64,000 nucleotides of DNA from Odontesthes bonariensis. Taxonomy: Eukaryota > Chordata > Actinopteri > Atheriniformes > Atherinopsidae. A program made the position numbers and the translations under genes. Below the pieces are notes generated by a model, which was given only the letters and a program-made list of their open reading frames with translations, was not told where the DNA came from and made no database searches. The stretch covers positions 35,703,711-35,767,710 of the forward strand of contig NC_134507.1 of NCBI RefSeq assembly GCF_027942865.1. Reading direction: 5' to 3'. Position 1 is the stretch's first letter, and each line of letters starts with the position of its first letter. This document shows positions 13,106 through 38,888 of this stretch, in pieces.

Positions 13106-13293
13106 ATCGCTTCTCGGCCTTTTGGCTAAGATCAAGTGTAGTATCTGTTCTTATCAGTTTAATATCTGATACGTCCTCTATATGAGGACTACATATTAAA
13201 TGGATTTTTAGGCACAGGGGTTGAAAAAGGGGCTTGCTCCGTTCACTCCACGCATCGACCCGGTACTGCAGTGCCGCCGGGAACGGTGCACTC
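13106..13293 (+). ncRNA. U2 snRNA, unit 8
   Basis: Whole array copy of U2; type B. Confidence 0.94.
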
Positions 13294-13660
13294 TTCCCAA
13301 CTCTTGTGAAATAACAAAACCAGCGGTACATGGTGGTAGTTTCAGGGAGCCATTGTATTCTGACTTCTAAAATGGAGCTATAATCTTTAGAAAAGACGCA
13401 GTTTATGAGCACGTCGTGGGATTGAGCTTCCCTGGTTTCTCTGTATGACCATGAACACCAAACTACACACAGAGAACAGAGGAGCTTGACAGACACACAC
13501 TAAGTTATCTGAGAGTCCCATTTTCAGCTGCAGAGAACAATCACATCAGGGAAGTCGACGTGCAAGCTCAACATCAGCCTCTCAAGCCAACTCTCTGGTA
13601 AAATAGGGGCAACGTATGGTTCCAGCACCTATGTAACACATATTTGTCACGGGGACTGTG

Positions 13661-14800: not shown

Positions 14801-14825
14801 ATCGCTTCTCGGCCTTTTGGCTAAG
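14801..14825 (+). pseudogene. U2 snRNA 5' fragment, unit 9 (split by Keno 1)
   Basis: The first 25 nt of U2, with the full upstream promoter region, stop at GGCTAAG where the retrotransposon begins. The rest of this gene resumes at 21648. Confidence 0.93.
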
Positions 14826-15173
14826 TCTGCGATCGCCTCCTTTGGGTGGACTATTTTATGCCTTTTCGGCATTCAATTTTTCTCGCTTTGGAGGTTCTTT
14901 TTTGCGTTCGATCAAAGTATTCCAAGTCGTTTGTAGTTGGAGTTCTTTGTCTTTAAATTTTCTTGTATTACCCTTTTTTTTTCCAGGTTTTTGCTTTTTG
15001 AACGAGTTTCAGCTGAAACAGGGTCGGTGTCGGTGTTCCATTTTTTAGAGGAAGGTAAGTATCCCTTTTAGTACCTTTTTATCCACTTTTTACTCCTTAT
15101 TGGGTTTTTAGTGTGATATTTATTATTGTTCTTTTAAGCATTTTATTTAAAAACTGTTTGTGGTGCCTCCATC

Positions 15174-17687
15174 ATGTCGGCTAACTATGCTGGCATGAGG
15201 AGGCACCACAGCGCTAGATTTTTATTTAAAGAAAAAGAAGGAAAGCTTATAGAGATGTCAAGATTGGACTTCTCTCGGAAGTTAATTCAAAACATATTGA
15301 ACTTCAAGCCAGACGATTTGAATTGCATCCTGTCATTGCCTTTTAACAAAGGTTTCGATGTAAGTTTTCACACTGCAGCTTTGCTGCAGGAGTTTTGGAT
15401 GAGATTTGGTAATGTGCAAGCCCAGTTTTCTGCGTTTACTGTTGAGAAACTTACTGACAATACTCTGAAGACAGTAATTGTCAGAATGTTCAATGAAATG
15501 ATGAACGCAGAAGATATCTGTATATGGTTGGGAAGATTCTGCACTGTTAAAGGCCAGGCAATGAAGGTGAGGGATGTCGATGGCATCTGGAACTGCGCCT
15601 GGAGGGTCCCCATCCAACAATGGCAAGACCCCCAGGGCTTCCAGGGCCTGAAACATCTCCCATCAATGATTGTCTTGGGAGAAAACAGAGGCTACATCCA
15701 CTACCAGGGACAGCCCAAACTCTGCCGCAAGTGTGGGGAGCACGGGCACCTGGTGGAGGCCTGCACGAAGGTGTTTTGTGGCAAATGTAGAGGAATCGGT
15801 CACACCTTCGAAGAGTGTACGAATGGCAGAAAGTGCAATCTCGGTGGAGAATCAAACCACCTCTTCAGAGATTGCCCAAAATCCTTTGCCAACAAATTGA
15901 AATCCAAAAAAACGCGGGAAGGAAATGGAGGGCAGACCGAGGCAGTTAACGAGCTACTTGAAACAGCTGGGCTGGAAAATTCAAACTTCCCGCCAAAATC
16001 CCTGAATGGTGGACAGCAGTCAGGTGAGGCCGAGGAGGGGGAGGGGCCTGCTACACCCCCACCAATGGAGAGTTCTGGAGAGGAGGAGGAGGAGGAGGAG
16101 GAGGAGGTGGTGCAGGCAGAAGGCGGAGCTAGTTCAGAATGTGAAGAAGTCCAATCACAGGATGATAGCGAGGATGCCTCCCTCCCAGATGCCCAGCAAA
16201 CAAAGAGGCTTGCATCAGAATTGTCCTCTGATTCTCCTATAGTCTCAGAGAAGAGGGGAAGAGCTGGGACTACCTCAGACAGTTCATCTGTGGAGGAGCC
16301 CAGAGTTAGTGATGGCAAAATGAGGCTTTGTGAACCAATGAGGCTTTCCAGCCCAAAGGTTCGCCAAAAGGTTCATTACCCGAAGCCTCATTGAAACGGT
16401 CTCTCTAGTGACACCTGCTGTGCAAAAGGAATAGATGACAGACTAAATTAACCCTGAGTTAGAGCATCCTGCAATATAAAATAAACAATTGTTGTCACTG
16501 TGTCTCAATGAAAATAAATGTGTGAAAACTGCATATATGGAAGTATTATTGAGTGCTATGGTGTTGATCACTCAAATGAAATATATCAATGATGTACACT
16601 GACTACAGTGCTTATGGAACTAAAGTGCCATGGGACCGGGAGTCAGGAATAAACTGTAACAGAGCAGTATGGGCAACAAGACAAACATAAGTTATTGGTT
16701 TTTATTTTAAAAAATGTGTGTCAATAACGTTGCGGTTTAATATGCCCAGAAGAAAAAAGAGCGACAACAACTACCGATAACTATGTTCTTCTCTCGAAGA
16801 AACACACCTGCACCGCGGGCTTTAGAAGGAAAAAAAAACGCTGAGTCAGGATGCAGCGGCTCAATCAGAAGAGCAGTGAAATACACGCGAGTCACTATTT
16901 GTCCTACTGTAGCCTACTTTTTATTCTTTTTTCATAATCATTTTTCATTTTCTCCCGTTCTAATCCAATGACTCGGGTCGCGGTGCTGATCTCCGCAATT
17001 TGAAGCCTTCAGTTCGTATTGATTCAAATTATTATTTTACAGTAGGCCTACAGTAGTTATTTGTAAAAAAAAATAAAGGTTACTACTTCACGGATTTCGC
17101 CTATCACGGGTTCTTTTTGGAACGTAACCCCCGCGAAAAACGAGGGTTCATATCCTATATAACTATTCTAACACTATTCTAACCTAATTACGATATATTC
17201 TAATGCAGTATAATAATAATAATAGATGATATGACTGATATGACTGATATAATAACTGAACTTAACCACTAACTCTGATACAAGTGCCGCAAGGTTCAAA
17301 CCCTTTTTATGCGATAGTGACGCTCAAAATGAATCAGTGACGTGTACACTGAATCCGAGGCCTCGTTTGTCATCAGTCACGTGATTTTTATGGAAACGAT
17401 ACAAGCCTCGAACCAACGCTTCATCTGGCTCGCCCCTTTTTGCTCGACACATGCTCCGAGGCCTCGCTTCAAACGCCACATCACTACCCAGAGTCTTCCC
17501 CTCCAATTCACCAAATGAGGTCTCTTTTTTAAATGTAGTTCTGCAATCAACCCCTAGAGACTCAAAGTTTAACAAAACCTTGCAACAGAGGCCAACCCCC
17601 AGAGTCCGACCGGGGAATAGAGCTCAACACCCTCGCCTCTCACCTGTAGAAGTGAAGGAAGAGCTCCGTTCACAAGAAATTACATAA
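15174..17687 (+). pseudogene. Keno copy 1 ORF1, interrupted by hAT
   Basis: ORF1 starts at ATG 15174 ([10 protein letters not shown]) and its original stop is at 17685-17687. It is cut at codon ~378 by the hAT at 16307-17486, which ends the open frame at 16394. Two CCHC knuckles are intact; in the third (near residue 221) the second Cys is Gly ([14 protein letters not shown]). The acidic stretch has more GAG repeats than copy 2. The protein family binds element RNA and forms the retrotransposition particle; this copy is probably dead. Confidence 0.85.
16307..17486. mobile_element. Non-autonomous hAT-like DNA transposon in Keno ORF1
   Basis: Flanked by a perfect 8-bp duplication CCCAGAGT (16299-16306 and 17487-17494); copy 2 of Keno has this site once, which proves insertion. 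Inverted ends begin TAGTGATG (left TAGTGATGGCAAAATGAGGC; right end reads TAGTGATGTGGCG on the other strand). An 8-bp duplication and TAGTGATG ends are typical of hAT elements. 1,180 bp, no transposase frame seen, so it depends on a partner. Confidence 0.88.
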
Positions 17688-17736
17688 CTGCTTTTAAGAC
17701 ATTTTAATTGTTTTAACCCTCTTTTAGTCTTTTAAG

Positions 17737-20700
17737 ATGTCATACCTGTTGTTTTTAACCATACTCATGACACTCACTCTCTCAACTATTAATGTGAGAA
17801 GTGTAAAGTCGAAAGTTAGAGCCCACAGTGTTTTATCCTTTCTTAGTTCTTTTAAGTCAGATGTTCTTTTAATACAGGAATGCGGCCTACCGTTTTTAAA
17901 GCACTACAGACAGTGGGAGGAGATGTGGCCACAGACATCATTGTGGAGTGGATCCAACCAAAACAAAAATGATGGAGTGGCCATTTTGATCAAAAACCCT
18001 CAGGTTCTGGTGAAGGGCAGCACTGTGGTGAGAGACGGACGGGCACTTTTAGCACATTTGACTTTTATGGGACAAGATTTTAACCTCTTAAATATTTATG
18101 GCTTCAACGAAGAAAATGACCGGTATGACCTTTTAGAAGACCTGCAGTCCCACATGCTAGGTAGGGCACCACTAGTTTTAGGGGGTGATTTTAACTGTAT
18201 TTTAAGCAGGAGTGACAGAAAAAGAGCAGGGGAATTTTTTAAAGTTGACAAAACATCGGTTTTATTACAGGGCATATGCAAGGATTTTAAACTTCAGGAC
18301 TGTTTTAAAACCATGCATCCCAGAGAGGAGGGCTTCACCTGGTTCAGTGGTGATGGCACCAAAGCCTCTCGTATAGACTACCTTTTTACACGGGACTGCC
18401 CACCAACCGATGCTAGATTGACCCCCGTTTTCTTTTCCGATCACCTAATGCTTTCCTGCACCCTATCACTCTCTTCGGGTGTGACTTCCGGAAGTGGTCT
18501 GTGGAAACTAAACTGCTCCCTTTTAGAAGAAAATGAAATAGTTAGTCAGTACCGGGAGCAGTACCACGAGTGGCAGACCCTTCAAGACTTTTACGATACA
18601 CGTGCACACTGGTGGGAAATGGTGAAGGAAAAGACCCAGACTTTCTTTAGACAGGCAGGTAGGAGAAAAAAGAATAGGGAAAACAGACGCATGATGGGAC
18701 TGCAGAAGCGACTACAGCGCTATTTTAAATTAAACCAACAAGGGATGGATTTTAAAGATGAAATTAAACAAGTGAAAACAGAGATGTCGATTTTAGCAGA
18801 TATTAAAAGTAAGGGTGTCATTTTAAGAAGCAGGGAACGAGAAATAGAGGAAGGAGAGAAGTGCACAAGGTATTTTTTTAAGAAAATTGTGAATAAAGGG
18901 GGGGCCATTTTAAAGCTAACAAAAGAGAACGGGTGCACAGTTGATTCAATGGAAGAAATTAAACAAGCTGTTGAACAATTTTATCGTGAATTGTACGAAC
19001 AAAAACCTGTTGAAATGGACACCATGACAGAAGTTTTAAATTTCATAGAAAAAACAGTAAAAGACAGTGTGCTTTTAACCCAAGATTTTACAATTTCAGA
19101 GTTAAATAAATGTTTTACAAATTTTAAGAAAGGGAAGTCCCCAGGACAAGATGGACTTCCCTTGGAATTTTATTTGACCTTTTGGGATATTTTAGCACCT
19201 GACCTGTTTACTGCTTTTATGGAATTTGAGCAACTTGAGCGACTTCCTGACAGTTTTAGAGCAGGGATAGTGACTCTTCTTCACAAAAAAAAAGACAAGA
19301 CTAACTTGAAGAATTGGAGACCGATTACACTTTTAAACTTTGACTGTAAACTTTTTAGTAAACTTTTAGCCTCACGTGTGTCCTTGTTTTTAGAAGACCC
19401 GATTCACCCGGATCAAGCCTGTGCCATCCCGGGGAGGAAGATAACCGACAGCCTCGTACTGATCCGAGACACCATCTGTTATGCGAGAGACAGAAACATT
19501 CGGCTAGCAGTCCTAAATTTAGACTTTGAGAAAGCCTTTGATCGGGTCTCGCACCAGTACCTTTTCCAGGTACTGCAAAAAATGGGGTTCCCAGAAAGGT
19601 TTATAGCTTGGGTGGGTCTGCTGTACCGGGGCATTACCAGCAAATTCCTTGTTAACGGGCATCTGACAAAAGCAGTAAACATCCACTGCGGTGTCCGTCA
19701 GGGTTGTCCGTTATCTGCCCTCCTCTACATCATCTGTGTGGAACCACTGGCACAGAGCTTGAGAAGGGACCACCGAATCAATGGGGTGAGAGTCCCGGGG
19801 AGCGGGGGACTATCGACAAAGTGTGTTTTATATATGGACGACGTAAACATTTTATGTACAGACCTAATATCCATCAATAGGACTCTGGACTTGACTGACT
19901 GGTATGGACGGGCCTCTGGGGCAAAACTAAACAGAAACAAGACCCAAGCCCAATTTTACGGGCCATGGACAGCGACTGAGACTGCAGGACTCCCCGTGAC
20001 TATAACCCAGACAAAACAGAAAATACTGGGGATTAATTTTGACAAGGAAGGGGGAGGGACATCAAACTGGCCAGACGTGGTAGGGAAAGTAAAGCAAAGA
20101 CTAGGATACTGGGGACTTAGAGGACTGACCATTGAAGGAAAGGTTTTAATCATCAAAGCCGTGATTTTACCTTTGCTTTTACTAATCAGTTCTGTTTTTA
20201 TCCCACCTAGAAAAGTGCTTTTAGACCTGGACCGAGCCATTTTTTATTTTCTGTGGGGCTCCAAGTGGGAAAGACTGAGGAGAGATGTAATGAAGAAACA
20301 AAAAGAGAAAGGAGGAAAAGGAGTGCCTGATTTTTATTTGTTTTTAGGAAGCAGATACACTACACTGCACATCCTACAGGCCACAGACCCATCCGGAAAC
20401 CCCAAAACTAAAGCAATGACACGATTCTGGATGGGTTCTTACCTCAGAAGACTGAAGATTTTACCCACCGACCTAAAAGTGCCTGTGTCTTTTAGCCTGC
20501 CACCATCCTATGCTTTTATCCAGACGTTCTTAAAGCATTTTAACTTGGAGGCAGAGGAGTTGCATGTTTTAACAAACCACCGCTCTTTGATTTCTGTTGT
20601 GCAGGAGCGGGAACCAGTGAGTCCAGTGCGTGGGCTCGCGTTCGGCGAGCCCTCAACAGTTTGGTGCAACGTCAACCATTCCGCTCTCCCAAACAGACTC

Positions 20701-21267
20701 CGGGACCTGTCGTGGATGGTGGCTCATGAGATCCTCCCAGTCAGGTCCGTTATGCACTCCCGGGGCATGTCAGCGATCTCAACCTGCCCGCGACCTGGTT
20801 GTGGCGCGCCCGAGTCGGTGAGGCACCTGCTCTGGGAGTGCAGCGCTGCTGCAGACCAGTGGGCAACAGCCGGCTCCTTGCAATTCCCGTACTTGCCAGC
20901 AAGGGAGGTCCTCACAGCACAACTCGTGCTCTATGGGGTGAGCCAAACAAAAATAAAAAAGAATGACTTTGCCAAGCAGTGGCTCACCCTAGCCGCCATG
21001 AAAGACGCCATGTGGACCTCCAGGAACTTGCTGGTGAGGAAGCGCATGCAGATCCCCCCCGTGGCTGTGATCCGGATGGCCGCAGCGGCGGCTCAAGCGG
21101 CCGGAGCTGCAGGCGGCGGGCCTAGGACACATCCACAAAGAGGAATCGCCTCTGTGCCCATTCGGATGAAGGAGCCGGAGCTACACACAAAAAGGTCAAA
21201 GCAGCGACGGCCTGGCTCTCCGGGTGAGGCAGGTGGGAAGGAGCAACAGGGTGGGGATCTCCTCTGA
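17737..21267 (+). CDS. Keno copy 1 ORF2: APE endonuclease-reverse transcriptase (intact, 1,176 aa)
   Basis: An uninterrupted frame. The N-terminal APE-type endonuclease has its key residues in order: N19, E48, Y121, D151 and N153 (GGDFN), S204, D214, D235 and H236 (SDH). The reverse transcriptase follows: [18 protein letters not shown] (D596), GVRQGCPLS, and Y699-MDD. YMDD replaces the more common LINE YADD. Near the C terminus is a Cys/His knuckle ([19 protein letters not shown]). The endonuclease nicks the target and the RT copies element RNA in place. The start at 17737 is the first ATG; L-rich residues 1-15 precede the endonuclease core. A basic tail (HTKRSKQRR) ends the protein. The coding DNA is unusually rich in TTTTA up to about 20580. 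Confidence 0.9.
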
Positions 21268-21647
21268 GCACCACGACAGGATCCCGAGAGACCTACTGTT
21301 TGGGGGAGCGAAATGAGTTTCCCTGGGTAGGGACTCACTGCGCTCCTGCACAAAAAATGGACTTGGAAGAGAGCATTTTAACTAATGCACTCCTTTTTAA
21401 AGAAACTCAATACAAACTGCTACTCGCATGAGAACTACTTCACATGTAGCTTTGAACCTTAGACGACATTGACTTTATCTGTAATATCCCATGAAAAAAC
21501 TTGTTTTATTGTTGTTTTAAATGTGGTTATACAGATTACACTTATTTATTGATGTTTTTATTCATAGGTAAAACATATGTCTTAAATATGAAGTTTTTAT
21601 GAAAATGTGATGTATTAGTGTCAATAAATTTTTTCAAAAGAAAAAAA

Positions 21648-21797
21648 TCTGTTCTTATCAGTTTAATATCTGATACGTCCTCTATATGAGGACTACATAT
21701 TAAATGGATTTTTAGGCACAGGGGTTGAAAAAGGGGCTTGCTCCGTTCACTCCACGCATCGACCCGGTACTGCAGTGCCGCCGGGAACGGTGCACTC
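21648..21797 (+). pseudogene. U2 snRNA 3' fragment, unit 9
   Basis: U2 from about nucleotide 39 (TCTGTTCTTATC) to the 3' end. Nucleotides ~26-38, including GTAGTA, are absent on both sides of the insertion. Confidence 0.93.
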
Positions 21798-22164
21798 TTC
21801 CCAACTCTTGTGAAATAACAAAACCAGCGGTACATGGTGGTGGTTTCAGGGAGCCATTGTATTCTGACTTCTAAAATGGAACTATAATCTTTAGAAAAGA
21901 CGCAGTTTATGAGCACGTCGTGGGATTGAGCTTCCCTGGTTTCTCTGTATGACCATGAACACCAAACTACACACAGAGAACAGAGGAGCTTGACAGACAC
22001 ACACTAAGTTATCTGAGAGTCCCATTTTCAGCTGCAGAGAACAATCACATCAGGGAAGTCGACGTGCAGGCTCAACATCAGCCTCTCAAGCCAACTCTCT
22101 GGTAAAATAGGGGCAACGTATGGTTCCAGCACCTATGTAACACATATTTGTCACGGGGACTGTG

Positions 22165-22283
22165 GCTTACGGCCACACCGCCCTGAACACGCCCGATCTC
22201 GTCCGAACTCGGAAGCCAAGCAGGGTCGGGCCTGGTTAGTACTTGGATGGGAGACCGCTTGGGAATACCAGGTGCTGTAAGCA
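22165..22283 (+). rRNA. 5S ribosomal RNA, unit 10
   Basis: Tenth array copy, between the two retrotransposon insertions. Its spacer has two extra TCTTC slips. Confidence 0.93.
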
Positions 22284-22515
22284 TTTTTCTCTCTTCTCTT
22301 CTCTTCTCTCTGCATGTCTTTTGTTGAAACATCTGTTGATCACCCTGTGCTCCATCTTGCTGATCCTGGATCTGCTAAGGTGTCCCAGGTCATGGTTGCC
22401 TTTGATCCTCATACATTTAACTTTGTCCTGACAAAGGAGCAGTTCCAAAAAGTCAAACAGGGACTGCCTTTGCATTTGACGCAGTCAAACTGCATGCGCC
22501 TGGAGAAGCCAAAAG

Positions 22516-22593
22516 GCTTACAGCACCTGGTATTCCCAGGCGGTCTCCCCATCCAAGTACTAACCAGGCCCGACTCTGCTTAGCTTCTGAGAT
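22516..22593 (-). pseudogene. Inverted 5S rRNA relic, unit 10
   Basis: Same truncated inverted 5S as in unit 1, here 351 bp after the 5S start because of two spacer slips. Confidence 0.83.
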
Positions 22594-22897
22594 AAAACTC
22601 TGGCTTTTAGTCTGCGAAAAGAGAGTGAAAGTGAACTCCACTTTGAGATGGCTCTGGGATTGGGCCGACTGGGAGAATTGCTTGAAAAAAACCTCTACAC
22701 CCAATGAGCGGTCAGAACAAAGCCTCAAGACCCCTAGTCTTTTGCACAGAGTAAAAGACAAAGCAGCCATTGAATAGGGCCCGATTGTTCCTACCTGGTC
22801 GGCCGAGGAGCCAGCGTCTCAACCAAGCAAAGCTCACCGTGGGGAAGGTGGCTATGCCAACTAGCCTGATGCACTGCTCCCGCAGTGTCAAATACTC

Positions 22898-23017
22898 GTA
22901 CTCTGGTTTCTCTTCATAACGTACAAGTCTTTCGCCTTTTACTAAAGACTTCCGTGGAGGGCAGCATTAATGAGTTGTTTCTATTTTTGGAAGGTTTTAC
23001 CTTTGCGGGTGAAGCCC
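22898..23017 (+). ncRNA. U5 snRNA, unit 10
   Basis: Array copy of U5 with two private substitutions: GTGGAGGGCAGC after loop I, and GGTTTTACC in the 3' stem (C to T, which allows a G-U pair). Loop I and the Sm site are unchanged. Confidence 0.88.
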
Positions 23018-23314
23018 ATTCTGTCTGTGCAAAGGAAATCTTCTTGCTGTGCCAAGTGACTTCTCGGAGTAGAGTCACCTTATTTCTTGAGACCGTGCCC
23101 ATGTTCAAAGCTGGAGCGCTAAATTGTTGTTGTTTGAATGGTGCTCAGTGGAGCGGGCGGGAGTGCAAAGTTGTACCATCTGAAACGGCTGAAGAGTGCT
23201 CACTGCAGCGGGTGGGCGGAGGTGCAAAGTGACGCTTTGTAGGCAAAAAAAGAGCACCGCCACAAGTGCGCATTGTGCCAGGAAGGGCTCTCGGACGTGA
23301 AACAGTGGAGGGTT

Positions 23315-23340
23315 ATCGCTTCTCGGCCTTTTGGCTAAGA
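23315..23340 (+). pseudogene. U2 snRNA 5' fragment, unit 10 (split by Keno 2)
   Basis: The first 25-26 nt of U2 (GGCTAAGA at the junction). The gene resumes at 28965. Confidence 0.93.
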
Positions 23341-23688
23341 CTGCGATCGCCTCCTTTGGGTGGACTATTTTATGCCTTTTTGGCATCAAATTTTCTCGCT
23401 TTGGAGGTTCTTCTTTGCGTTTGATCAAAGTATTCCAAGTCTATTGTAGTTGGAGTTCTTTGTATTTAAATTTTCTTGTATTACCCTTTTTTCCCAGGTA
23501 TTTACTTTTTGAAAGAGTTTCAGCTGAAACAAGGTCAGTGGCTTTGTTCCGTTTTTTTTTAGAGGAAGGTAAGTATCCATTTTTAGTACCTTTTAATCCA
23601 CTTTTTTTTCTTTTATTGGGTTTTAGTGTGATATTTATTAGTGTTCTTTTAAGCATTTTATTTAAAAACTGTTTGTGGTGCCTCCATC

Positions 23689-24999
23689 ATGTCGGCAAAC
23701 TATGCTGGCATGAGGAGGCACCACAGCGCTAGATTTTTGTTTAAAGAAAATGAAGGAAAGCTCATAGAGATGTCCAGATTGGACTTCTCTCGGAAGCTAA
23801 TCCAAAAAACATTGAACTTTAAGCCAGACGATTTAAATTGCATCCTGTCATTGCCTTTTAACATAGGTTTCGATGTCAGTTTTCGCACTGCAGCTTTGCT
23901 GCAGGAGTTTTGGACAAGATTTGAAAATGTGCAAGCCCAGTTTTCTGCGTTTACTATTGAGAAACTTACTGACAATACTCTGAAGACAGTAATTGTCAGA
24001 ATGTTCAATGAAATGGTGAACGCAGAAGATATCTGTATATGGTTGGGAAGATTCTGCACTGTTAAAGGCCAGGCAATGAAGGTGAGGGATGTCGACGGCA
24101 TCTGGAACTGCGCCTGGAGGGTCCCCATCCAACAATGGCAAGACCCCCAGGGCTTCCAGGGCCTGAGACATCTCCCATCAATGATTGTCTTGGGAGAAAA
24201 CAGAGGCTACATCCACTACCAGGGACAGCCCAAACTCTGCCGCAAGTGTGGGGAGCACGGGCACCTGGTGGAGGCCTGCACGAAGGTGTTTTGTGGCAAA
24301 TGTAGAGGAATCGGTCACACCTTCGAAGAGTGTACAAATGGCAGAAAGTGCAATCTCTGTGGAGAATCAAACCACCTCTTCAGAGATTGCCCAAAATCTT
24401 TTGCCAACAAATTGAAATCCAAAAAACCGCGAGAAGGAAATGGAGGGCAGACCGAGGCAGTTAACGAGCTACTTGAAACAGCTGGGCTGGAAAATTCAAA
24501 CTTCCCGCCAAAATCCCTGAATGGTGGACAGCAGTCAGGTGAGGCCGAGGAGGGGGAGGGGCCTGCTACACCCCCACCAATGGAGAGCTCTGGAGAGGAG
24601 GAGGAGGTGGTGCAGGCAGAAGGCGGAGCTAGTTCAGAATGTGAAGAAGTCCAATCACAGGATGATAGCGAGGATGCCTCCCTCCCCGATGCCCAGCAAA
24701 CAAAGAGGCTTGCATCAGAATTTTCCTCTGATTCTCCTATAGTCTCAGAGAAGAGGGGAAGAGCTGGGACTACCTCAGACAGTTCATCTGTGGAGGAGCC
24801 CAGAGTCTTCCCCTCCAATTCACCAAATGAGGTCTCTTTTTTAAATGTAGTTCTGCAATCAACCCCTAGAGACTCAAAGTTTAACAAAACCTTGCAACAG
24901 AGGCCAACCCCCAGAGTCCGACCGGGAAATAGAGCTCAACACCCTCGCCTCTCACCTGTAGAAGTGAAGGAAGAGCTCCGTTCACAAGAAATTACATAA
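23689..24999 (+). CDS. Keno copy 2 ORF1: CCHC RNA-binding protein (intact, 436 aa)
   Basis: Complete frame from ATG 23689. Three CCHC knuckles of CX2CX4HX4C form: C184-C187-H192-C197, C202-C205-H210-C215, and C221-C224-H229-C234. An N-terminal part (residues ~1-180) of the kind found in Tx1-type ORF1 proteins precedes them; a Glu/Ser-rich acidic stretch and a basic C terminus follow. ORF2 begins 49 bp after the stop in another frame, so ORF2 needs reinitiation or a similar mechanism. It most likely coats element RNA. Confidence 0.87.
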
Positions 25000-25048
25000 C
25001 TGCTTTTAAGACATTTTAAATGTTTTAACCCTCATTTAGTCTTTTAAG

Positions 25049-28000
25049 ATGTCATACCTGTTGTTTTTAACCATACTCATGACACTCACTCTCTCAACTA
25101 TTAATGTGAGAAGTGTAAAGTCGAAAGTTAGAGCCCACAGTGTTTTATCCTTTCTTAGTTCTTTTAAGTCAGATGTTCTTTTAATACAGGAATGCGGCCT
25201 ACCGTTTTTAAAGCACTACAGACAGTGGGAGGAGATGTGGCCACAGACATCATTGTGGAGTGGATCCAACCAAAACAAAAATGACGGAGTGGCCATTTTG
25301 ATCAAAAACCCTCAGGTTCTGGTGAAGGGCAGCACTGTGGTGAGAGACGGACGGGCACTTTTAGCATATTTGACTTTTATGGGACAAGATTTTAACCTCT
25401 TAAATATTTATGGCTTTAACGAAAAAAATGACCGGTATGACCTTTTAGAAGACCTGCAGTCCCACATGCTAGGTAGGGCACCACTAGTTTTAGGGGGTGA
25501 TTTTAACTGTATTTTAAGCAGGAGTGACAGAAAAAGAGCAGGGGAATTTTTTAAAGTTGACAAAACATCGGTTTTATTACAGGGCATATGCAAGGATTTT
25601 AAACTTCAGGACTGTTTTAGGACCATGCATCCCAGAGAGGAGGGCTTCACCTGGTTCAGTGGTGATGGCACCAAAGCCTCTCGTATAGACTACCTTTTTA
25701 CACGGGACTGCCCACCAACCGATGCTAGATTGACCCCCGTTTTCTTCTCTGATCACCTGATGCTTTCCTGCACCCTATCACTCTCTTCGGGTGTGACTTC
25801 CGGAAGTGGTCTGTGGAAACTAAACTGCTCCCTTTTAGAAGAAAATGAAATAGTTAGTCAGTACCGGGAGCAGTACCACGAGTGGCAGACCCTTCAAGAC
25901 TTTTACGATACACGTGCACACTGGTGGGAAATGGTGAAGGAAAAGACCCAGACTTTCTTTAGACAGGCAGGTAGGAGAAAAAAGAATAGGGAAAACAGAC
26001 GCATGATGGGACTGCAGAAGCGACTACAGCGCTATTTTAAATTAAACCAACAAGGGATGGATTTTAAAGATGAAATTAAACAAGTGAAAACAGAGATGTC
26101 GATTTTAGCAGATATTAAAAGTAAGGGTGTCATTTTAAGAAGCAGGGAACGAGAAATAGAGGAAGGAGAGAAGTGCACAAGGTATTTTTTTTAAGAAAAT
26201 TGTGAATAAAGGGGGGGCAATTTTAAAGCTAACAAAAGAGAACGGGTGCACAGTTGATTCAATGGAAGAAATTAAAGAAGCTGTTGAACAATTTTATCGT
26301 GAACTGTACGAGCAAAAACCTGTTGAAATGGACACCATGACAGAAGTTTTAAATTTCATAGAAAAAACAGTAAAAGACAGTGTGCTTTTAACCCAAGATT
26401 TTACAATTTCAGAGTTAAATAAATGTTTTACAAATTTTAAGAAAGGGAAGTCCCCAGGACAAGATGGACTTCCCTTGGAATTTTATTTGACCTTTTGGGA
26501 TATTTTAGCACCTGACTTGTTTACTGTTTTTATGGAATTTGAGCAACTTGACCGACTTCCTGACAGTTTTAGAGCAGGGATAGTGACTCTTCTTCACAAA
26601 AAAAAAGACAAGACTGACTTGAAGAATTGGAGACCGATTACACTTTTAAACTTTGACTGTAAACTTTTTAGTAAACTTTTAGCCTCACGTATGTCCTTGT
26701 TTTTAGAAGACCTGATTCACCCGGATCAAGCCTGTGCCATCCCGGGGAGGAAGATAACCGACAGCCTCGTACTGATCCGAGACACCATCTGTTATGCGAG
26801 AGACAGAAACATTCGGCTAGCAGTCCTAAATTTAGACTTTGAGAAAGCCTTTGATCGGGTCTCGCACCAGTACCTTTTCCAGGTACTGCAAAAAATGGGG
26901 TTCCCAGAAAGGTTTATAGCTTGGGTGGGTCTGCTGTACCGGGGCATTACCAGCAAATTCCTTGTTAACGGGCATCTGACAAAAGCAGTAAACATCCACT
27001 GCGGTGTCCGTCAGGGTTGTCCGTTATCTGCCCTCCTCTACATCATCTGTGTGGAACCACTGGCACAGAGCTTGAGAAGGGACCACCGAATCATTGGGGT
27101 GAGAGTCCCGGGGAGCGGGGGACTATCGACAAAGTGTGTTTTATATATGGACGACGTGAACATTTTATGTACAGACCTAATATCCATCAACAGGACTCTG
27201 GACTTGACTGACTGGTATGGAAGGGCCTCTGGGGCAAAACTAAACAGAAACAAGACCCAAGCCCAATTTTACGGGCCATGGACAGCGACTGAGACTGCAG
27301 GACTCCCCGTGACTATAACCCAGACAAAACAGAAAATACTGGGGATTAATTTTGACAAGGAAGGGGGAGGGACATCAAACTGGCCAGACGTGGTAGGGAA
27401 AGTAAAACAAAGACTAGGATACTGGGGACTTAGAGGACTGACCATTGAAGGAAAGGTTTTAATCATCAAAGCCGTGATTTTACCTTTGCTTTTACTAATC
27501 AGTTCTGTTTTTATCCCACCTAGAAAAGTGCTTTTAGACCTGGACCGAGCCATTTTTTATTTTCTGTGGGGCTCCAAGTGGGAAAGACTGAGGAGAGATG
27601 TAATGAAGAAACAAAAAGAGAAAGGAGGAAAAGGAGTGCCTGATTTTTATTTGTTTTTAGGAAGCAGATACACTACACTGCACATCCTACAGGCCACAGA
27701 CCCATCCGGAAACCCCAAAACTAAAGCAATGACACGATTCTGGATGGGTTCTTACCTCAGAAGACTGAAGATTTTACCCACCGACCTAAAAGTGCCTGTG
27801 TCTTTTAGCCTGCCACCATCCTATGCTTTTATCCAGACGTTCTTAAAGCATTTTAACTTGGAGGCAGAGGAGTTGCATGTTTTAACAAACCACCGCTCTT
27901 TGATTTCTGTTGTGCAGGAGCGGGAACCAGTGAGTCCAGTGCGTGGGCTCGCGTTCGGCGAGCCCTCAACAGTTTGGTGCAACGTCAACCATTCCGCTCT

Positions 28001-28580
28001 CTCAAACAGACTCCGGGACCTGTCGTGGATGGTGGCTCATGAGATCCTCCCAGTCAGGTCCGTTATGCACTCCCGGGGCATGTCAGCGATCTCAACCTGC
28101 CCGCGACCTGGTTGTGGCGCGCCCGAGTCGGTGAGGCACCTGCTCTGGGAGTGCAGCGCTGCTGCAGACCAGTGGGCAACAGCCGGCTCCTTGCAATTCC
28201 CGTACTTGCCAGCAAGGGAGGTCCTCACAGCACAACTCGTGCTCTATGGGGTGAGCCAAACAAAAATAAAAAAGAATGACTTTGCCAAGCAGTGGCTCAC
28301 CCTAGCCGCTATGAAAGACGCCATGTGGACCTCCAGGAACTTGCTGGTGAGGAAGCGCATGCAGATCCCCCCCGTGGCTGTGATCCGGATGGCCGCAGCG
28401 GCGGCTCAAGCGGCCGGAGCTGCAGGCGGTGGGCCTAGGACACATCCACAAAGAAGAATCGCCTCTGTGCCCATTCGGATGAAGGAGCCGGAGCTACACA
28501 CAAAAAGGTCAAAGCAGCGACGGCCTGGCTCTCCGGGTGAGGCAGGTGGGAAGGAGCAACAGGGTGGGGATCTCCTCTGA
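25049..28580 (+). pseudogene. Keno copy 2 ORF2 (one frameshift)
   Basis: Same protein as copy 1 ORF2, but the frame breaks between 26185 and 26192, where copy 2 has eight T and copy 1 seven. The break lies between the endonuclease and the RT domain: 25049-26194 encodes the endonuclease half and 26202-28580 the RT half, each open throughout. All catalytic motifs (GGDFN, SDH, YMDD) are still present. The T run makes a sequencing or assembly error a fair alternative. Confidence 0.85.
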
Positions 28581-28964
28581 GCACCACGACAGGATCCCGA
28601 GAGACCTACTGTTTGGGGGAGCGAAATGAGTTTCCCTGGGTAGGGACTCACTGCGCTCCTGCACAAAAAATGGACTTGGAAGAGAACATTTTAACTAATG
28701 CACTCCTTTTTAAAGACACTCAATACAAACTGCTACTCGCATGAGAACTACTTCAAATGTAACTTTTTACCTTAGACAACATTGACCTTATCTGTAATAT
28801 CCCATGAAAAACTTGTTTTATTGTTGTTTGTTTTAAATGTGGTTATACAGATTACACTTATTTATTGATGTTTTTATTCATAGGTAAAACATATGTCTTA
28901 AATATGAAGTTTTTATGAAAATGTGATGTATTAGTGTCAATAAATTTTTTTTCAAAAGAAAAAA

Positions 28965-29114
28965 TCTGTTCTTATCAGTTTAATATCTGATACGTCCTCT
29001 ATATGAGGACTACATATTAAATGGATTTTTAGGCACAGGGGTTGAAAAAGGGGCTTGCTCCGTTCACTCCACGCATCGACCCGGTACTGCAGTGCCGCCG
29101 GGAACGGTGCACTC
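28965..29114 (+). pseudogene. U2 snRNA 3' fragment, unit 10
   Basis: U2 from about nucleotide 39 onward, after the second retrotransposon. The same ~12-13 nt of U2 are missing as in unit 9. Confidence 0.93.
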
Positions 29115-29481
29115 TTCCCAACTCTTGTGAAATAACAAAACCAGCGGTACATGGTGGTAGTTTCAGGGAGCCATTGTATTCTGACTTCTAAAATGGAGCT
29201 ATAATCTTTAGAAAAGACGCAGTTTATGAGCACGTCGTGGGATTGAGCTTCCCTGGTTTCTCTGTATGACCATGAACACCAAACTACACACAGAGAACAG
29301 AGGAGCTTGACAGACACACACTAAGTTATCTGAGAGTCCCATTTTCAGCTGCAGAGAAAAAACACATCAGGGAAGTCGACGTGCAGGCTCAACATCAGCC
29401 TCTCAAGCCAACTCTCTGGTAAAATAGGGGCAACGTATGGTTCCAGCACCTATGTAACACATATTTGTCACGGGGACTGTG

Positions 29482-30622: not shown

Positions 30623-30810
30623 ATCGCTTCTCGGCCTTTTGGCTAAGATCAAGTGTAGTATCTGTTCTTATCAGTTTAATATCTGATACGTCCTCTATAT
30701 GAGGACTACATATTAAATGGATTTTTAGACACAGGGGTTGAAAAAGGGGCTTGCTCCGTTCGCTCCACGCATCGACCCGGTACTGCAGTGCCGCCGGGAA
30801 CGGTGCACTC
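30623..30810 (+). ncRNA. U2 snRNA, unit 11
   Basis: Whole array copy of U2 with two private changes in the 3' half (TTTTTAGACAC after the Sm region, and CCGTTCGCTCC in stem-loop III). Possibly functional. Confidence 0.9.
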
Positions 30811-31208
30811 TTCCCAACTCTTGTGAAATAACAAAACCAGCGGTACATGGTGGTAGTTTCAGGGAGCCATTGTATTCTGACTTCTAAAATGGAACTATAA
30901 TCTTTAGAAAAGACGCAGTTTATGAGCACGTCCCACGACGTGCTCATAAACTGCGTCCCTGGTTGCGTCCCTGCGTTCCCTGGTTTCTCTGTATGACCAT
31001 GAACACCAAACTACACACAGAGAACAGAGGAGCTTGACAGACACACACTAAGTTATCTGAGAGTCCCATTTTCAGCTGCAGAGAACAATCACATCAGGGA
31101 AGTCGACGTGCAGGCTCAACATCAGCCTCTCAAGCCAACTCTCTGGTAAAATAGGGGCAACGTATGGTTCCAGCACCTATGTAACACATATTTGTCACGG
31201 GGACTGTG

Positions 31209-34335: not shown

Positions 34336-35131
34336 GCACTTGAATAAATGCACTTCAGCCCTTAAAGTGCCTTGAATCGCAGTAGCAGTGTGTTGTGTCA
34401 TTTCTTATTCCAAGTCAACACTTTCAATGTTCTCCTTCAATCTATTCATTATAATGTAACCTACCAGTAATTATAATCATTCATGATATACCATCATCTG
34501 TAATAATAAACACATGAACAGCATACAACTGTGAAGAAATAAAAAAGTTTATTGACTTAATAGACAATGTTGCAGAGGTAACAGTGTGTCATTTCCCCCA
34601 TAATCAATGTCTCTATCACCATGTAGGCCTCAAACCAGCGGGTCGACCAATGGGAAGACAAAAATAAGAGCTTTAGAGGTTTTGTTTACGTTCACATCCA
34701 CATGTTTCTAAAAATAGCCACACCAATTAGTCTCGTGTCTTTTTTTAACCACCTTTTTCTTTTTTTCATACAATACCAAGTACCAGCTGGTGGGTGAAAA
34801 TAAATAAATCACTCAAATGAAGTGATCAATAGACAGCAATGCAAGCATTAAAACATGATTCAATGTCCAACACTCCCAATTAGACAAAACACTTGTATAA
34901 AACAATCATTTAAGTCGTATTTTGTACATTTCCCTAGATTCACCCTGAAACAAAACTTCACCTCATAGCCTGGCAGCTTTTGACAGCTAATTGACCAATA
35001 GTACAGCATGCCCATGATTTCCCATCCCTCCCTCTCCATGGATTTGATTGACAAATCTTTTAGCCATTAATATGCCTTATATGTCTTACAGTCTACATCC
35101 GATTTTGCACTTTGTACGCGCTGAGGGCCGC
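34336..35131. other. No gene recognised
   Basis: AT-rich DNA between the repeat block and the U1 array. Several short reverse-strand frames exist, but none looks like a known protein. Confidence 0.5.
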
Positions 35132-35225
35132 TCGCAAGAGTCAGCACAGCCGGTGTGCAATGGCTGAGTCTCATCCTGGGTGAACCACCTTCTTGATCAT
35201 GGTATCTCCCCTGCCAGGTAAGTAT
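35132..35225 (-). pseudogene. U1 snRNA copy A, 3' truncated
   Basis: The reverse strand starts ATACTTACCTGGCAGGGGAG (5' splice-site pairing end) and matches U1 for ~94 nt. Homology then ends, so stem-loops 3 and 4 and the Sm site are missing. The promoter side is intact, including the PSE at 35269-35286. Confidence 0.87.
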
Positions 35226-35268
35226 GAGTTGGAACTGTCAGAGGCTGACACCTCTTTTCCAGATGCCT

Positions 35269-35286
35269 CACTCGGCCGGACGGTGC
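35269..35286 (-). promoter_or_regulatory. PSE-like element of U1 copy A
   Basis: GCACCGTCCGGCCGAGTG (reverse strand) at -61 to -44 of U1. It repeats at 35980-35997 and 36692-36709 upstream of copies B and C. It shares CACCG and AGTG with the U5 and U2 boxes. Confidence 0.6.
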
Positions 35287-35772
35287 AGCAAATTCAACTG
35301 TCTGCAGTGCCATGCCAGCAGCTAACCTGAATCTGAAAAGCTTGCAGATTAAAACAGTCCGGCTTTTCTTCATCTTTCTGATCAGTTCTTGTTTCAACAA
35401 CCAAGGAACTTGGAGCACAAATTGATTTATTTTTCCACTCTCCCCATCTCTAGAGCCACACCCACCCACACTGGGAAAATTCTTAGTTGAGGCAAACCCT
35501 CACGGCTTAATATCTCCAGTGCAGAAATGCTGCCGTATTCTCATCTCGTTGTTGCCATCACTAAGGCAACGCCCACCTGCCTGGGGTGACTGCACTGTAT
35601 GACCTCACCTGACACCTGCGCAGCTGCATATCAGCTGTGCAGACCTGCCGCAGCATTCAGCAAACCTTGCAAAACATGGGTTTTAAAGATGGAAAGGTGT
35701 CGTTAAAGCAGCAACGGCAGGACAAAAACCAAGGTAGAGTTGCCCAGGGATATTTACGTTATACAGTCAAAT

Positions 35773-35936
35773 CAGGGGAGAGCTCGAACGCAGTCCCCCA
35801 CTACCAGAAATTATGCAGTCGAGATTCCCACATTTGGGGAATTCGCAAGGGTCAGCACAGCCGGTGTGCAATGGCTGAGCCTCGTCCTGGGTGAACCACC
35901 TTCTTGATCATGGTATCTCCCCTGCCAGGTAAGTAT
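35773..35936 (-). ncRNA. U1 snRNA copy B (whole)
   Basis: 164 nt, the normal U1 length. U1 pairs with 5' splice sites through ACTTACCTG. The U1A-binding loop ATTGCAC is present. Two sites differ from the common vertebrate sequence: loop I reads GATCAAGAAGG (usually GATCACGAAGG), and the Sm site reads AATTTCTGG (usually AATTTGTGG). Copy C shares both, so they are not random decay in one copy. Confidence 0.92.
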
Positions 35937-36484
35937 GAGTTGGAACTGTCAGAGGCTGACACCTCTTTTCCAGGTGCCTCACTCGGCCGGACGGTGCAGC
36001 AAATTCAACTGTCTGCAGTGCCATGCCAGCAGCTAACCTGAATCTGAAAAGCTTGCAGATTAAAACACTCCGGCTTTTCTTCATCTTTCTGATCAGTTCT
36101 TGTTTCAACAACCAAGGAACTTGGAGCACAAATTGATTTAGTTTTTCCACTCTCCCCGTCTCTAGAGCCACACCCACCCACACTGGGAAAATTCTTAGTT
36201 GAGGCAAACCCTCACGGCTTAATATCTCCAGTGCAGAAATGCTGCCGTATTCTCATCTCGTTGTTGCCATCACTAAGGCAACGCCCACCTGCCTGGGGGG
36301 ACTGCACTGTATGACCTCACCTGACAACTGCGCAGCTGCATATCAGCTGTGCAGACCTGCCGCAGCATTCAGCAAACCTTGCAAAACATGGGTTTTAAAG
36401 ATGGAAAGGTGTCGTTAAAGCAGCAACGGCAGGACAAAAACCAAGGTTGAGTTGCCCAGGGATATTTACGTTATACAGTCAAAT

Positions 36485-36648
36485 CAGGGGAGAGCGCGAA
36501 CGCAGTCCCCCACTACCAGAAATTATGCAGTCGAGATTCCCACATTTGGAGAATTCGCAAGGGTCAGTACAGCCGGTGTGCAATGGCTGAGCCTCGTCCT
36601 GGGTGAACCACCTTCTTGATCATGGTATCTCCCCTGCCAGGTAAGTAT
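36485..36648 (-). ncRNA. U1 snRNA copy C (whole)
   Basis: 164 nt, nearly identical to copy B, with the same loop I and Sm variants and its own PSE. Confidence 0.92.
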
Positions 36649-37196
36649 GAGTTGGAACTGTCAGAGGCTGACACCTCTTTTCCAGATGCCTCACTCGGCC
36701 GGACGGTGCAGCAAATTCAACTGTCTGCAGTGCCATGACAGCAGCTAACCTGAATCTGAAAAGCTTGCAGATTAAAACAGTCTGGCTTTTCTTCATCTTT
36801 CTGATCAGTTCTTGTTTCAACAACCAAGGAACTTGGAGCACAAATTGATTTAGTTTTTCCACTCTCCCCGTCTCTAGAGCCACACCCACCCACACTGGGA
36901 AAATTCTTAGTTGAGGCAAACCCTCACGGCTTCATATCTCCAGTGCAGAAATGCTGCCGTATTCTCATCTCATTGTTGCCATCACTAAGGCAACGCCCAC
37001 CTGCCTGGGGTGACTGCACTGTATGACCTCACCTGACAACTGCGCAGCTGCATATCAGCTGTGCAGACCTGCCGCAGCATTCAGCAAACCTTGCAAAACA
37101 TGGGTTTTAAAGATGGAAAGGTGTCCTTAAAGCAGCAACGCCAGGACAAAAACCAAGGTAGAGTTGCCCAGGGATATTCACGTTATACAGTCAAAT

Positions 37197-37317
37197 CAGG
37201 GGAGAGCGCGAACGCAGTCCCCCACTACCAGAAATTATGCAGTCGAGATTCCCACATTTGGGGAATTCGCAAGGGTCAGCACAACCGGTGTGCAATGGCT
37301 GAGCCTCGTCCTGGGTG
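37197..37317 (-). pseudogene. U1 snRNA copy D, 5' truncated by hAT
   Basis: The 3' ~121 nt of U1. The first ~43 nt, including the splice-site pairing end, are replaced by a hAT-like end starting at 37318. The promoter is lost. Confidence 0.87.
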
Positions 37318-38888
37318 TAGTGATGTTACCTCCAACACCGAAGCACGCTTCAAACTCGACAGGGTAGTTATAGTGAAGCAGTGTGCCGGAGCTTGCTTCA
37401 TGTGACGTCACTGATGACGTTTGAACCACTTCACTGCTTCATTCAAACCGAGTCAGCTGACTGCTTCGAGTTGACAGCGGAGCTTTGAACATTTGCTGTG
37501 ATTCAATGTATTCAAGATGGCTGAAGCCCCGGTTCATGTCCCCGTTCTACACGTATTATACGTTACGAACAGCTCACGTTTTTTGATATTCGGAGTTTTG
37601 GATTATTCTCTCATGGAGCAACCATCGAGGAAGCGTTCTTAAGTGTGGGAATATTTCGACCCAAACAGTTCCTTCAGCACACCAGCCTCCTCTGTTCCCT
37701 GTGACAGAGTATTTTCCAAAGCTGGAGAAATTGACTAAAAAAGAAAAAGAAACCGTTTGAGCCCTTCTACTGTGCAAAAACTTGTTTTCTTGAATAAAAA
37801 CACCTGAAATAACACAAGCACCCTCTTTATTACACCAAGCACACTCCCAAAGAAAATATGAATGACAAACCAAAGATTTTCACATTGTTTTTAAATTATT
37901 ATTCCATCCATCCATCCATCATCTTCCGCTGGCCCGGGGGTCGGGTCGCGGGGGCAGCAGCTTAAGCAGAGAAACCCAGACGTCCCTGTCCCCGGCCACT
38001 TCCTCCAGCTCTTCTGGGGGGACCCCAAGGCGTTCCCCTGCCAGAGATCCAACGTGTCCGGGGTCTTCCCCGGGGTCTCCTCCCAGTGGGACGTGTCTCA
38101 CCAGGCGTCCAGGAGGCATCCTAACCAGATGCCCGAGCCACCTCATCTGACTCCTCTGGATGCAGAGGAGCAGCGGTTCTACTCCGAGCCCCTCCCGGAT
38201 GACCGAGCTTCTCACCCTATCCACCTGTCCTGGCGGTGAATCGCCACGCAGCACACGCAACCGCCGGCAAAGCAAAATGAAGCATAAACGTCTCGAGCCA
38301 TTAACACAAGCGCAAGACGCAAGCGCAAGGGCAGTTAAAAGAGGTATAACTCAGCCTTAAGGGAGAGCCAGACACCCTGCGGAGGAAATTAATTTCGGCC
38401 GCTTGTATTGGCGATCTCGTTCTTTCGGTCTCTACCCACAGCTCATGACCATAGGTGAGGATAGGAACATAGATTGACCGGTAAATCGAGAGCTTTTCCT
38501 TCTGGCTCAGCTGATGGCGCACCGATCCGCCTGTCAACCTCCCGCTGCATTCGTCCCTCACTCGTGAACAAGACCCCGAGATACTTGAACTCCTCCACTT
38601 GGGGAAGGATCTCATTCCTGACCCGGAGAGGGCAAATTATTATTTCATGGGTAAATTAATCAATCTTTAATGAGGTACTACAAACCCATATGTACATCAC
38701 ACATACATACGTGTTATTATCGTGTTATTATATGCATCACATTCGCAGGGCTTCATATGGTGCAACAATCGCTACGCCAGTAGATGTCACCCAAGGGAAT
38801 TGAATGAAGCTTTGAGTAGTGAACCACTTTATGACACAATGGTTTAAAATGATTCAATGCTTCAAAAAGCCTCGTTTTGCCATCACTA
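37318..38888. mobile_element. hAT-like non-autonomous transposon with nested LINE
   Basis: Starts TAGTGATGTTACC and ends TTTTGCCATCACTA (reverse complement TAGTGATGGCAAAACGAGG). The inner part matches the ends of the hAT at 16307-17486 (CGAGGCTT, GTGAACCA-type stretches), so it belongs to a related family. Without the nested LINE it is about 830 bp. The 8 bp on each side (CCTGGGTG and AGAAACGT) do not match, so one flank was rearranged after insertion. Confidence 0.75.
37904..38633 (-). mobile_element. 5'-truncated RTE/Rex3-like LINE
   Basis: The 3' end is at 37904, with a GATG-type repeat tail, and the piece is flanked by an 11-bp duplication AAATTATTATT (37893-37903 and 38634-38644). Frames on the minus strand resemble an RT C terminus (YVPILTYGHELWV; RSQMRWLGHLVRMPPGRL). 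The tail and C terminus fit the Rex3/RTE group. A further ~135-bp insertion, perhaps a small MITE, interrupts it at about 38221-38355. Confidence 0.72.

Follow-up and report, generated by a model that had tools for sequence, protein, structure and literature searches.

Loss of a short target segment at full-length Keno insertions in U2 genes of Odontesthes bonariensis and its probable origin in a U2-Keno RNA

How long interspersed nuclear elements (LINEs) complete their insertion is poorly understood, and two copies of the LINE Keno raise the question in a particular form, since a piece of the target gene, which encodes U2 small nuclear RNA (snRNA), is missing at both. What sets this loss? The copies lie in a 64,000-nucleotide stretch of the O. 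bonariensis genome (contig NC_134507.1, positions 35,703,711 to 35,767,710 of the forward strand), referred to as the window, in a tandem array whose units measure about 1.7 kb and carry 5S rRNA, U5 and U2 genes. Nine U2 genes of the window are intact and two are split by Keno. Nucleotide (nt) 1 of U2 is the first position of the Rfam U2 model and the 5′ end of mature U2, and GTAGTA (nt 33-38) is the stretch that pairs with the branch site. Such a branch-site pairing stretch in U2 is marked in a figure legend of PMC4640811. The sequence ATCAAGTGTAGTA (nt 26-38) is present in 9/9 intact U2 genes of the window and absent from both split genes. In copy 1, U2 nt 1-25 are followed by a T and then by CTGCGATCGCC; in copy 2, nt 1-26 lead directly into CTGCGATCGCC. 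Downstream of both copies U2 resumes at nt 39 after a run of A (Table 1).

Junctions of full-length and truncated copies

The genome from which the window was taken (945 Mb) was searched for Keno ends, and the best 40 of 70 first-look 5′ candidates and the best 40 of 362 first-look 3′ candidates were scored; the larger number of 3′ candidates is suggestive at most. A canonical 5′ junction, defined as U2 nt 1-25 or 1-26 in the normal promoter context joined directly to Keno, was present in 38 of the 40 best-scoring 5′ ends, the exceptions being loci L028 and L038. A junction that recurs to this extent is not due to chance. Twenty added ends (17 from a junction-pattern list, canonical by the pattern's own demand, as well as window copy 2, L052 and L064) bring the pooled count to 56/60, the other four ends representing three events. 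Of the 56 canonical copies, 55 retain A26 (an A26 tally of 57 includes L028), the exception being copy 1 with its T, and the loss is therefore best read as 12 bp (nt 27-38). A38 is indistinguishable from the A-tail; the minimum loss is 11 bp.

On the 3′ side, all of the Keno tails in the retrieved letters (43/43) run through A into TCTGTTC, which is U2 from nt 39. These tails were found without demanding U2, in a repeat of an earlier collection of 42 junctions that came from a pattern demanding TCTG. U2 stopping at nt 26 and followed by a base that is not T occurs at 56 places on contig C2, of which 55 are Keno heads and one, in L018, is not; internal Keno sequence follows nt 26 at none of these 56 places. 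On other contigs the pattern is found at 19 places, with unrelated sequence, and a reversed control pattern at nine. The L018 place (minus strand, around 7610) has U2 nt 1-26 followed by CATTACAAC..., which is not Keno, and about 1.2 kb further on Keno resumes beside the end of a hAT-like element.

The retrieved stretches of L049-L051, L053, L055, L056, L060-L063 and L065-L067 contain no U2 5′ junction; for L050, L053, L056, L066 and L067 the pattern list has a canonical head further up, as judged from coordinates alone. Left out of the counts are the second U2 5′ end of L018, the truncated copy of L052/L064 that sits on an inverted Keno tail, and the rearranged or inverted Keno pieces in L010, L018, L027 and L028.

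These results bear out the first-pass annotation of the window in that both sites lack the branch-site segment including GTAGTA, with U2 nt 1-25/26 directly upstream and nt 39 onward downstream. It had put the loss at about 13 bp (nt 26-38); the loss is real, and its size is reduced by the retained A26. The end of the U2 remnant, given as 29114, has to be moved to 29117. That a canonical copy should not yield a working U2 follows from the removal of the branch-site segment, as had been proposed.

Fifteen full-length copies were compared with each other, namely the window pair and 13 of 20 ten-kb loci, those with a single unbroken alignment to copy 2. They are related in a star-like manner, 0.6-1.9% apart, and the window copies are not mutual nearest relatives, which indicates that the loss recurred in many insertions. 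Copy 1 differs by 0.9-1.2% from each of the 13 other full-length copies and by 1.7% from copy 2. Between the two window copies, 102 of 5640 aligned bases differ, and copy 1 has 1188 bp extra (a hAT-like element and its 8-bp duplication). Judged by these sequences, the two look like independent insertions. Their divergence also excludes that the pair arose when a single unit containing Keno was duplicated in tandem.

Copies that are truncated at the 5′ end have another type of junction. In 5/5 events with a readable U2 junction (9 copies), 11-16 bp of the target are duplicated (nt 39 to 49-54), and none has a loss. The set consists of the second copies of L019, L027 and L025, the last of which lies in tandem behind the A-tail of the first copy, and of the outer and inner copies of L054/L057/L058. 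In these copies the target continues beyond the nick to U2 nt 49-54 and is followed by internal Keno sequence; the last bases of the duplications are sometimes common to Keno. The truncated event of L052/L064 abuts an inverted Keno tail and lacks U2 at that end. Comparison of the 38/40 full-length ends that carry the loss with 0/5 truncated events gives a Fisher p of 1.7e-5 (pooled, 56/60 versus 0/5, p = 1.5e-5). The loss is a property of full-length insertion and not a fixed result of cutting. This restriction points to the 5′ end of the RNA and not to the cut sites alone.

Exact matches to U2 in the genome number 295 for nt 31-49 and 276 for nt 31-58, an excess of 19. Six of these 19 were read: four are the truncated Keno junctions of L019, L027, L054 and L058, one is an intact U2 gene with a point change (window position 1221), and one is L086. 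The latter (C2:33319280-33319420) is a U2 gene that is broken at nt 49 and joined to the 3′ spacer beyond U2, with no Keno. Its break is at the same place as the putative top-strand break of Keno, and it may be an abortive insertion.

U2 heads and the origin of the loss

Extra U2 sequence at the Keno 5′ end is found in four copies that go back to three events (L028, L052/L064 and L038). In L028, U2 nt 1-152 pass at a shared ATCG into a second U2 start (nt 1-26), which is followed by Keno; with the 3′ end at nt 39, the duplication comprises 114 bp. In L052 and its amplified relative L064, the spacer past the U2 end runs directly into ATCGCTTCTCGG... (ATCGCTTC...), U2 nt 1-26, and a variant Keno head. 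This U2 head sits in the spacer beyond U2, and a search of stretch L059 for the 3′ end of the insertion gave none. In L038, a complete U2 1-38 is followed by AGATCAAG, which matches U2 24-31, and then by Keno; a Keno tail about 5.6 kb on, judged by distance to belong to the same copy, leads into U2 from nt 39, and the target has lost no bases.

The first-pass annotation had described the insertion as bringing a target deletion instead of a duplication. This is near-constant in full-length copies and does not extend to the truncated ones, and it is not supported as a general rule; L028 and L038, too, keep U2 1-38 upstream of the Keno 5′ end. The tabulation of junctions that it had suggested as a check yielded a near-constant loss in full-length copies, together with the complete U2 and the duplications that it had named as refuting cases, and in its simple form the proposal is refuted.

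In two events, L028 and L052/L064, the first base of the ectopic U2 head is exactly nt 1. A cDNA made from an RNA that starts at U2 nt 1 would end there, so that exact nt-1 heads are expected, while a deletion between array units has no reason to stop at this position; these heads thus favour an RNA template. We consider it probable that the U2 promoter drives transcription of Keno, giving an RNA with U2 1-26 at its start, that the cDNA end anneals to U2 1-26 of the target, and that the loss is templated. Full-length Keno RNA would be transcribed from the U2 promoter of the interrupted gene and begin with U2 nt 1-26 followed by Keno. As the junctions suggest, the endonuclease would nick the bottom strand, placing the 3′ junction at U2 nt 39, and reverse transcription would start from the A-tail. 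To judge from the truncated copies, the default top-strand break would lie 11-16 bp downstream, near nt 49-54, with duplications when the cDNA is incomplete. The last 26 bases of a complete cDNA, being complementary to U2 1-26 of the new target, could anneal there; target bases past nt 26 would be trimmed, or the strand cut at 26/27, and second-strand synthesis would start at nt 26. Because nt 27-38 would be missing from the RNA, they would be missing from the new insertion as well, and the 12-bp gap without a duplication would pass from donor to target via RNA. An incomplete cDNA, unable to anneal, would be joined to the usual top-strand break, and a duplication would result.

The chances are about even that the mobile unit as such is a chimera of U2 and Keno: a LINE that destroys a gene, uses the Pol II snRNA promoter of that gene for its own transcription and has U2 1-26 as its working 5′ end. 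If so, the U2 head would guide second-strand priming, and each full-length insertion would again stand under a U2 promoter and again lack the branch-site segment. Truncated copies without such a head would revert to ordinary duplication.

Several observations weigh against a templated loss. The sample of 5′ ends leans towards the canonical junction, as U2 1-25 formed the start of the 5′ query and only 40 of the 70 candidates received a score; the heads of L052 and L064, which were met by chance in stretches taken for 3′ ends, are both non-canonical. The array amplified some copies, and not all of them are independent events. For the second copies of L019 and L027 the 3′ junction lies outside the retrieved stretch, and the head remnant of L038 ends at nt 31, not 26. 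An ordinary duplication with a U2 head, or the Keno start, no more than 30 bases behind it had no hits in the genome with exact patterns, which miss variants. The proposal is also read from DNA junctions, whose classes and counts are the direct observations; from these we infer the RNA 5′ end, the annealing, and the trimming or cutting at nt 26. Finally, later deletions that joined array units at short homology could have produced the nt-1 heads of L028 and L052/L064, which would then be uninformative about the RNA. The array units are indeed repeated and rearranged, and L086 is a Keno-free deletion that leads from U2 nt 49 into the 3′ spacer. However, two separate events break exactly at nt 1, which would hardly be expected even once if breaks fell at random in a spacer of about 1.5 kb, and we regard later deletion as unlikely.

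The loss might also be set by the endonuclease cuts, with no need for U2 sequence in the RNA. Its near-constancy at the scored and pooled 5′ ends is in line with this, and deletions are described as the result of a staggered cut of this sense (PMC6895275). Both putative cuts fall in the motif AGA/T (top AAGA/TCAA, bottom CAGA/TACT), which keeps a role of the cut sites, alone or in a mixed form, alive. However, cuts alone leave the ectopic heads at U2 nt 1 (L028, L052/L064) unexplained and do not agree with the truncated events, all of which are duplications, so that this explanation is quite unlikely. In the mixed form, the default top-strand cut is downstream, and a full-length RNA 5′ end redirects it to 26/27, where the cDNA also anneals. 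It covers the dichotomy of full-length and truncated copies as well as the AGA/T motif, and it was proposed for melanogaster-type R1 (PMC2718515), but a redirected cut and the trimming of an unpaired flap would leave the same junctions; we give the mixed form a small chance, below that of the cuts alone. Unequal exchange between U2 units, spreading one original insertion that happened to have a deletion, would account for the blocks L054/L057/L058 and L052/L064, which are clearly copied. As the source of the loss in general it is highly improbable: the 15 compared copies are star-like, their A-tails vary in length, and for the window pair, adjacent copies that are not sisters, it is largely refuted.

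Features of the window

Table 1. Keno copies, U2 remnants and adjoining features. Positions refer to the window.
Feature	Position	Strand	Remarks
Intact U2 gene, for comparison	13106..13296	+	1 of 9 in the window
U2 nt 1-25, 5′ remnant at copy 1	14801..14825	+	T at the nt 26 position (14826)
Keno copy 1	14827..21647	+	A-tail and inserted 1180-bp hAT-like element counted in
hAT-like insertion in copy 1	16307..17486	.	flanking CCCAGAGT at 16299-16306 and 17487-17494
Open reading frame (ORF) 2 of copy 1, 1176 aa	17737..21267	+	apurinic/apyrimidinic endonuclease (APE)-type endonuclease, reverse transcriptase, zf-RVT
U2 nt 39-191, 3′ remnant at copy 1	21648..21800	+	
U2 nt 1-26, 5′ remnant at copy 2	23315..23340	+	canonical junction
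Keno copy 2, full length	23341..28964	+	A-tail counted in
ORF1 of copy 2, 436 aa	23689..24999	+	2 ZCCHC3-type RNA-binding domains, CCHC zinc knuckles
U2 nt 39-191, 3′ remnant at copy 2	28965..29117	+	
Intact U2 gene adjoining copy 2 downstream	30623..30813	+	

The hAT-like element in copy 1 has the ends TAGTGATG...CATCACTA, is flanked by the 8-bp duplication CCCAGAGT and breaks ORF1. Ends resembling those of this element are also present within the Keno sequence of L018 and L019. ORF2 of copy 2 is broken by a T-run at 26185-26202 that differs in length by one base from that of copy 1.

An inverted degenerate 5S copy that scores slightly under the Rfam gathering score is found at 2121-2242, with equivalents in other units of the array. 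Past the 5S/U5/U2 array, four matches to U1 are located on the minus strand at 35083-37371, two of them strong (155 bits) and two weak (97 and 74 bits). At 55608-57287, also on the minus strand, an open frame of 560 aa represents a TRIM-like gene with RING, B-box, coiled-coil and PRY-SPRY.

Identity of the element and comparison with known systems

The element is a U2-targeting LINE of the Keno kind, and the name fits its target and its domains. Exo_endo_phos and RVT_1 domains were found in ORF2, and the best match among solved structures is LINE-1 ORF2p (1.1e-87). The features of Keno that were found are insertion in U2 with the 3′ flank at nt 39, an APE-type endonuclease and an L1-like reverse transcriptase. 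A restriction-like endonuclease (RLE), as in Utopia, was not represented by any family among the domain matches at E up to 0.01. On viral contigs, no exact Keno/U2 junction was found and no ORF2 relative was confirmed. The variant Keno head of L052/L064 keeps the U2 1-26 junction, and that of L052 is 85% identical to copy 2 over the first 700 bases, pointing to a putative second Keno subfamily in the same genome. L055 (C2:45338980-45341380), far from the main array, has a Keno 3′ end at nt 39 of a U2-like copy that has diverged (about 86% over 74 compared bases).

The element itself, its 3′ junction and the destruction of its target are already known: Keno of the Tx1 clade (KenoDr1, Keno-1_SSa) likewise targets U2, with the 3′ flank TCTGTTCTTATCAG at nt 39 and an APE-type endonuclease, and destroys the target gene (PMC4640811, PMC6136364). 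Reports of Keno in U2 in PMC6136364 and PMC9323068 go back to U2 matches to the library entry Keno-1_SSa, and these matches could arise from U2 flank within the entry. In the accessible passages of one open-access library, which does not cover the 2004 description of Keno, we found no earlier report of the split between full-length loss and truncated duplication or of the nt-1 head.

Utopia, which also targets U2, has the same 3′ junction at nt 39 (PMC4640811) but differs in its restriction-like endonuclease; its arthropod copies have no duplication and its reptile copies have 20-bp duplications. For R2 with 28S sequence on its RNA, annealing of the cDNA end upstream leads to precise 5′ junctions, and ends are otherwise joined (PMC11331408), similar to what is proposed here. 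R2 differs in being RLE-type and in that a ribozyme, rather than a transcription start, sets the 5′ end of its RNA.

R1 belongs to a clade other than that of Keno and targets 28S rDNA, not U2. In the melanogaster group, 75% of the full-length R1 copies have a precise 9-bp deletion, the other full-length copies (~25%) have duplications together with 16-27 nt of 28S, and all 5′-truncated copies have duplications near 14 bp; the authors infer 28S sequence on the R1 RNA (PMC2718515). Common to melanogaster-type R1 and Keno here, in mechanism and not by descent, are the constant deletion in full-length copies and the duplications in truncated ones. In contrast to R1, a class with an ordinary-length duplication and a host head or the Keno start had 0 hits here by two exact patterns, which leaves the atypical L028, L052/L064 and L038, and the ectopic heads start where the mature host RNA has its 5′ end.

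According to PMC6895275, it is still to be determined whether APE-type LINEs use a four-way junction, in which the cDNA is paired with the upstream target, and some R1 elements are named there as a case for which such pairing was proposed. With a second APE-type element, of a different clade, in which full-length and truncated copies are split in this way, the question would become testable. An advantage here is that the first base of the host RNA is precisely known, so that a head at nt 1 clearly marks the template. The pattern of Keno resembles the published one of melanogaster-type R1, here with an snRNA promoter, and if the proposal is true, Keno would be a LINE living off such a promoter.

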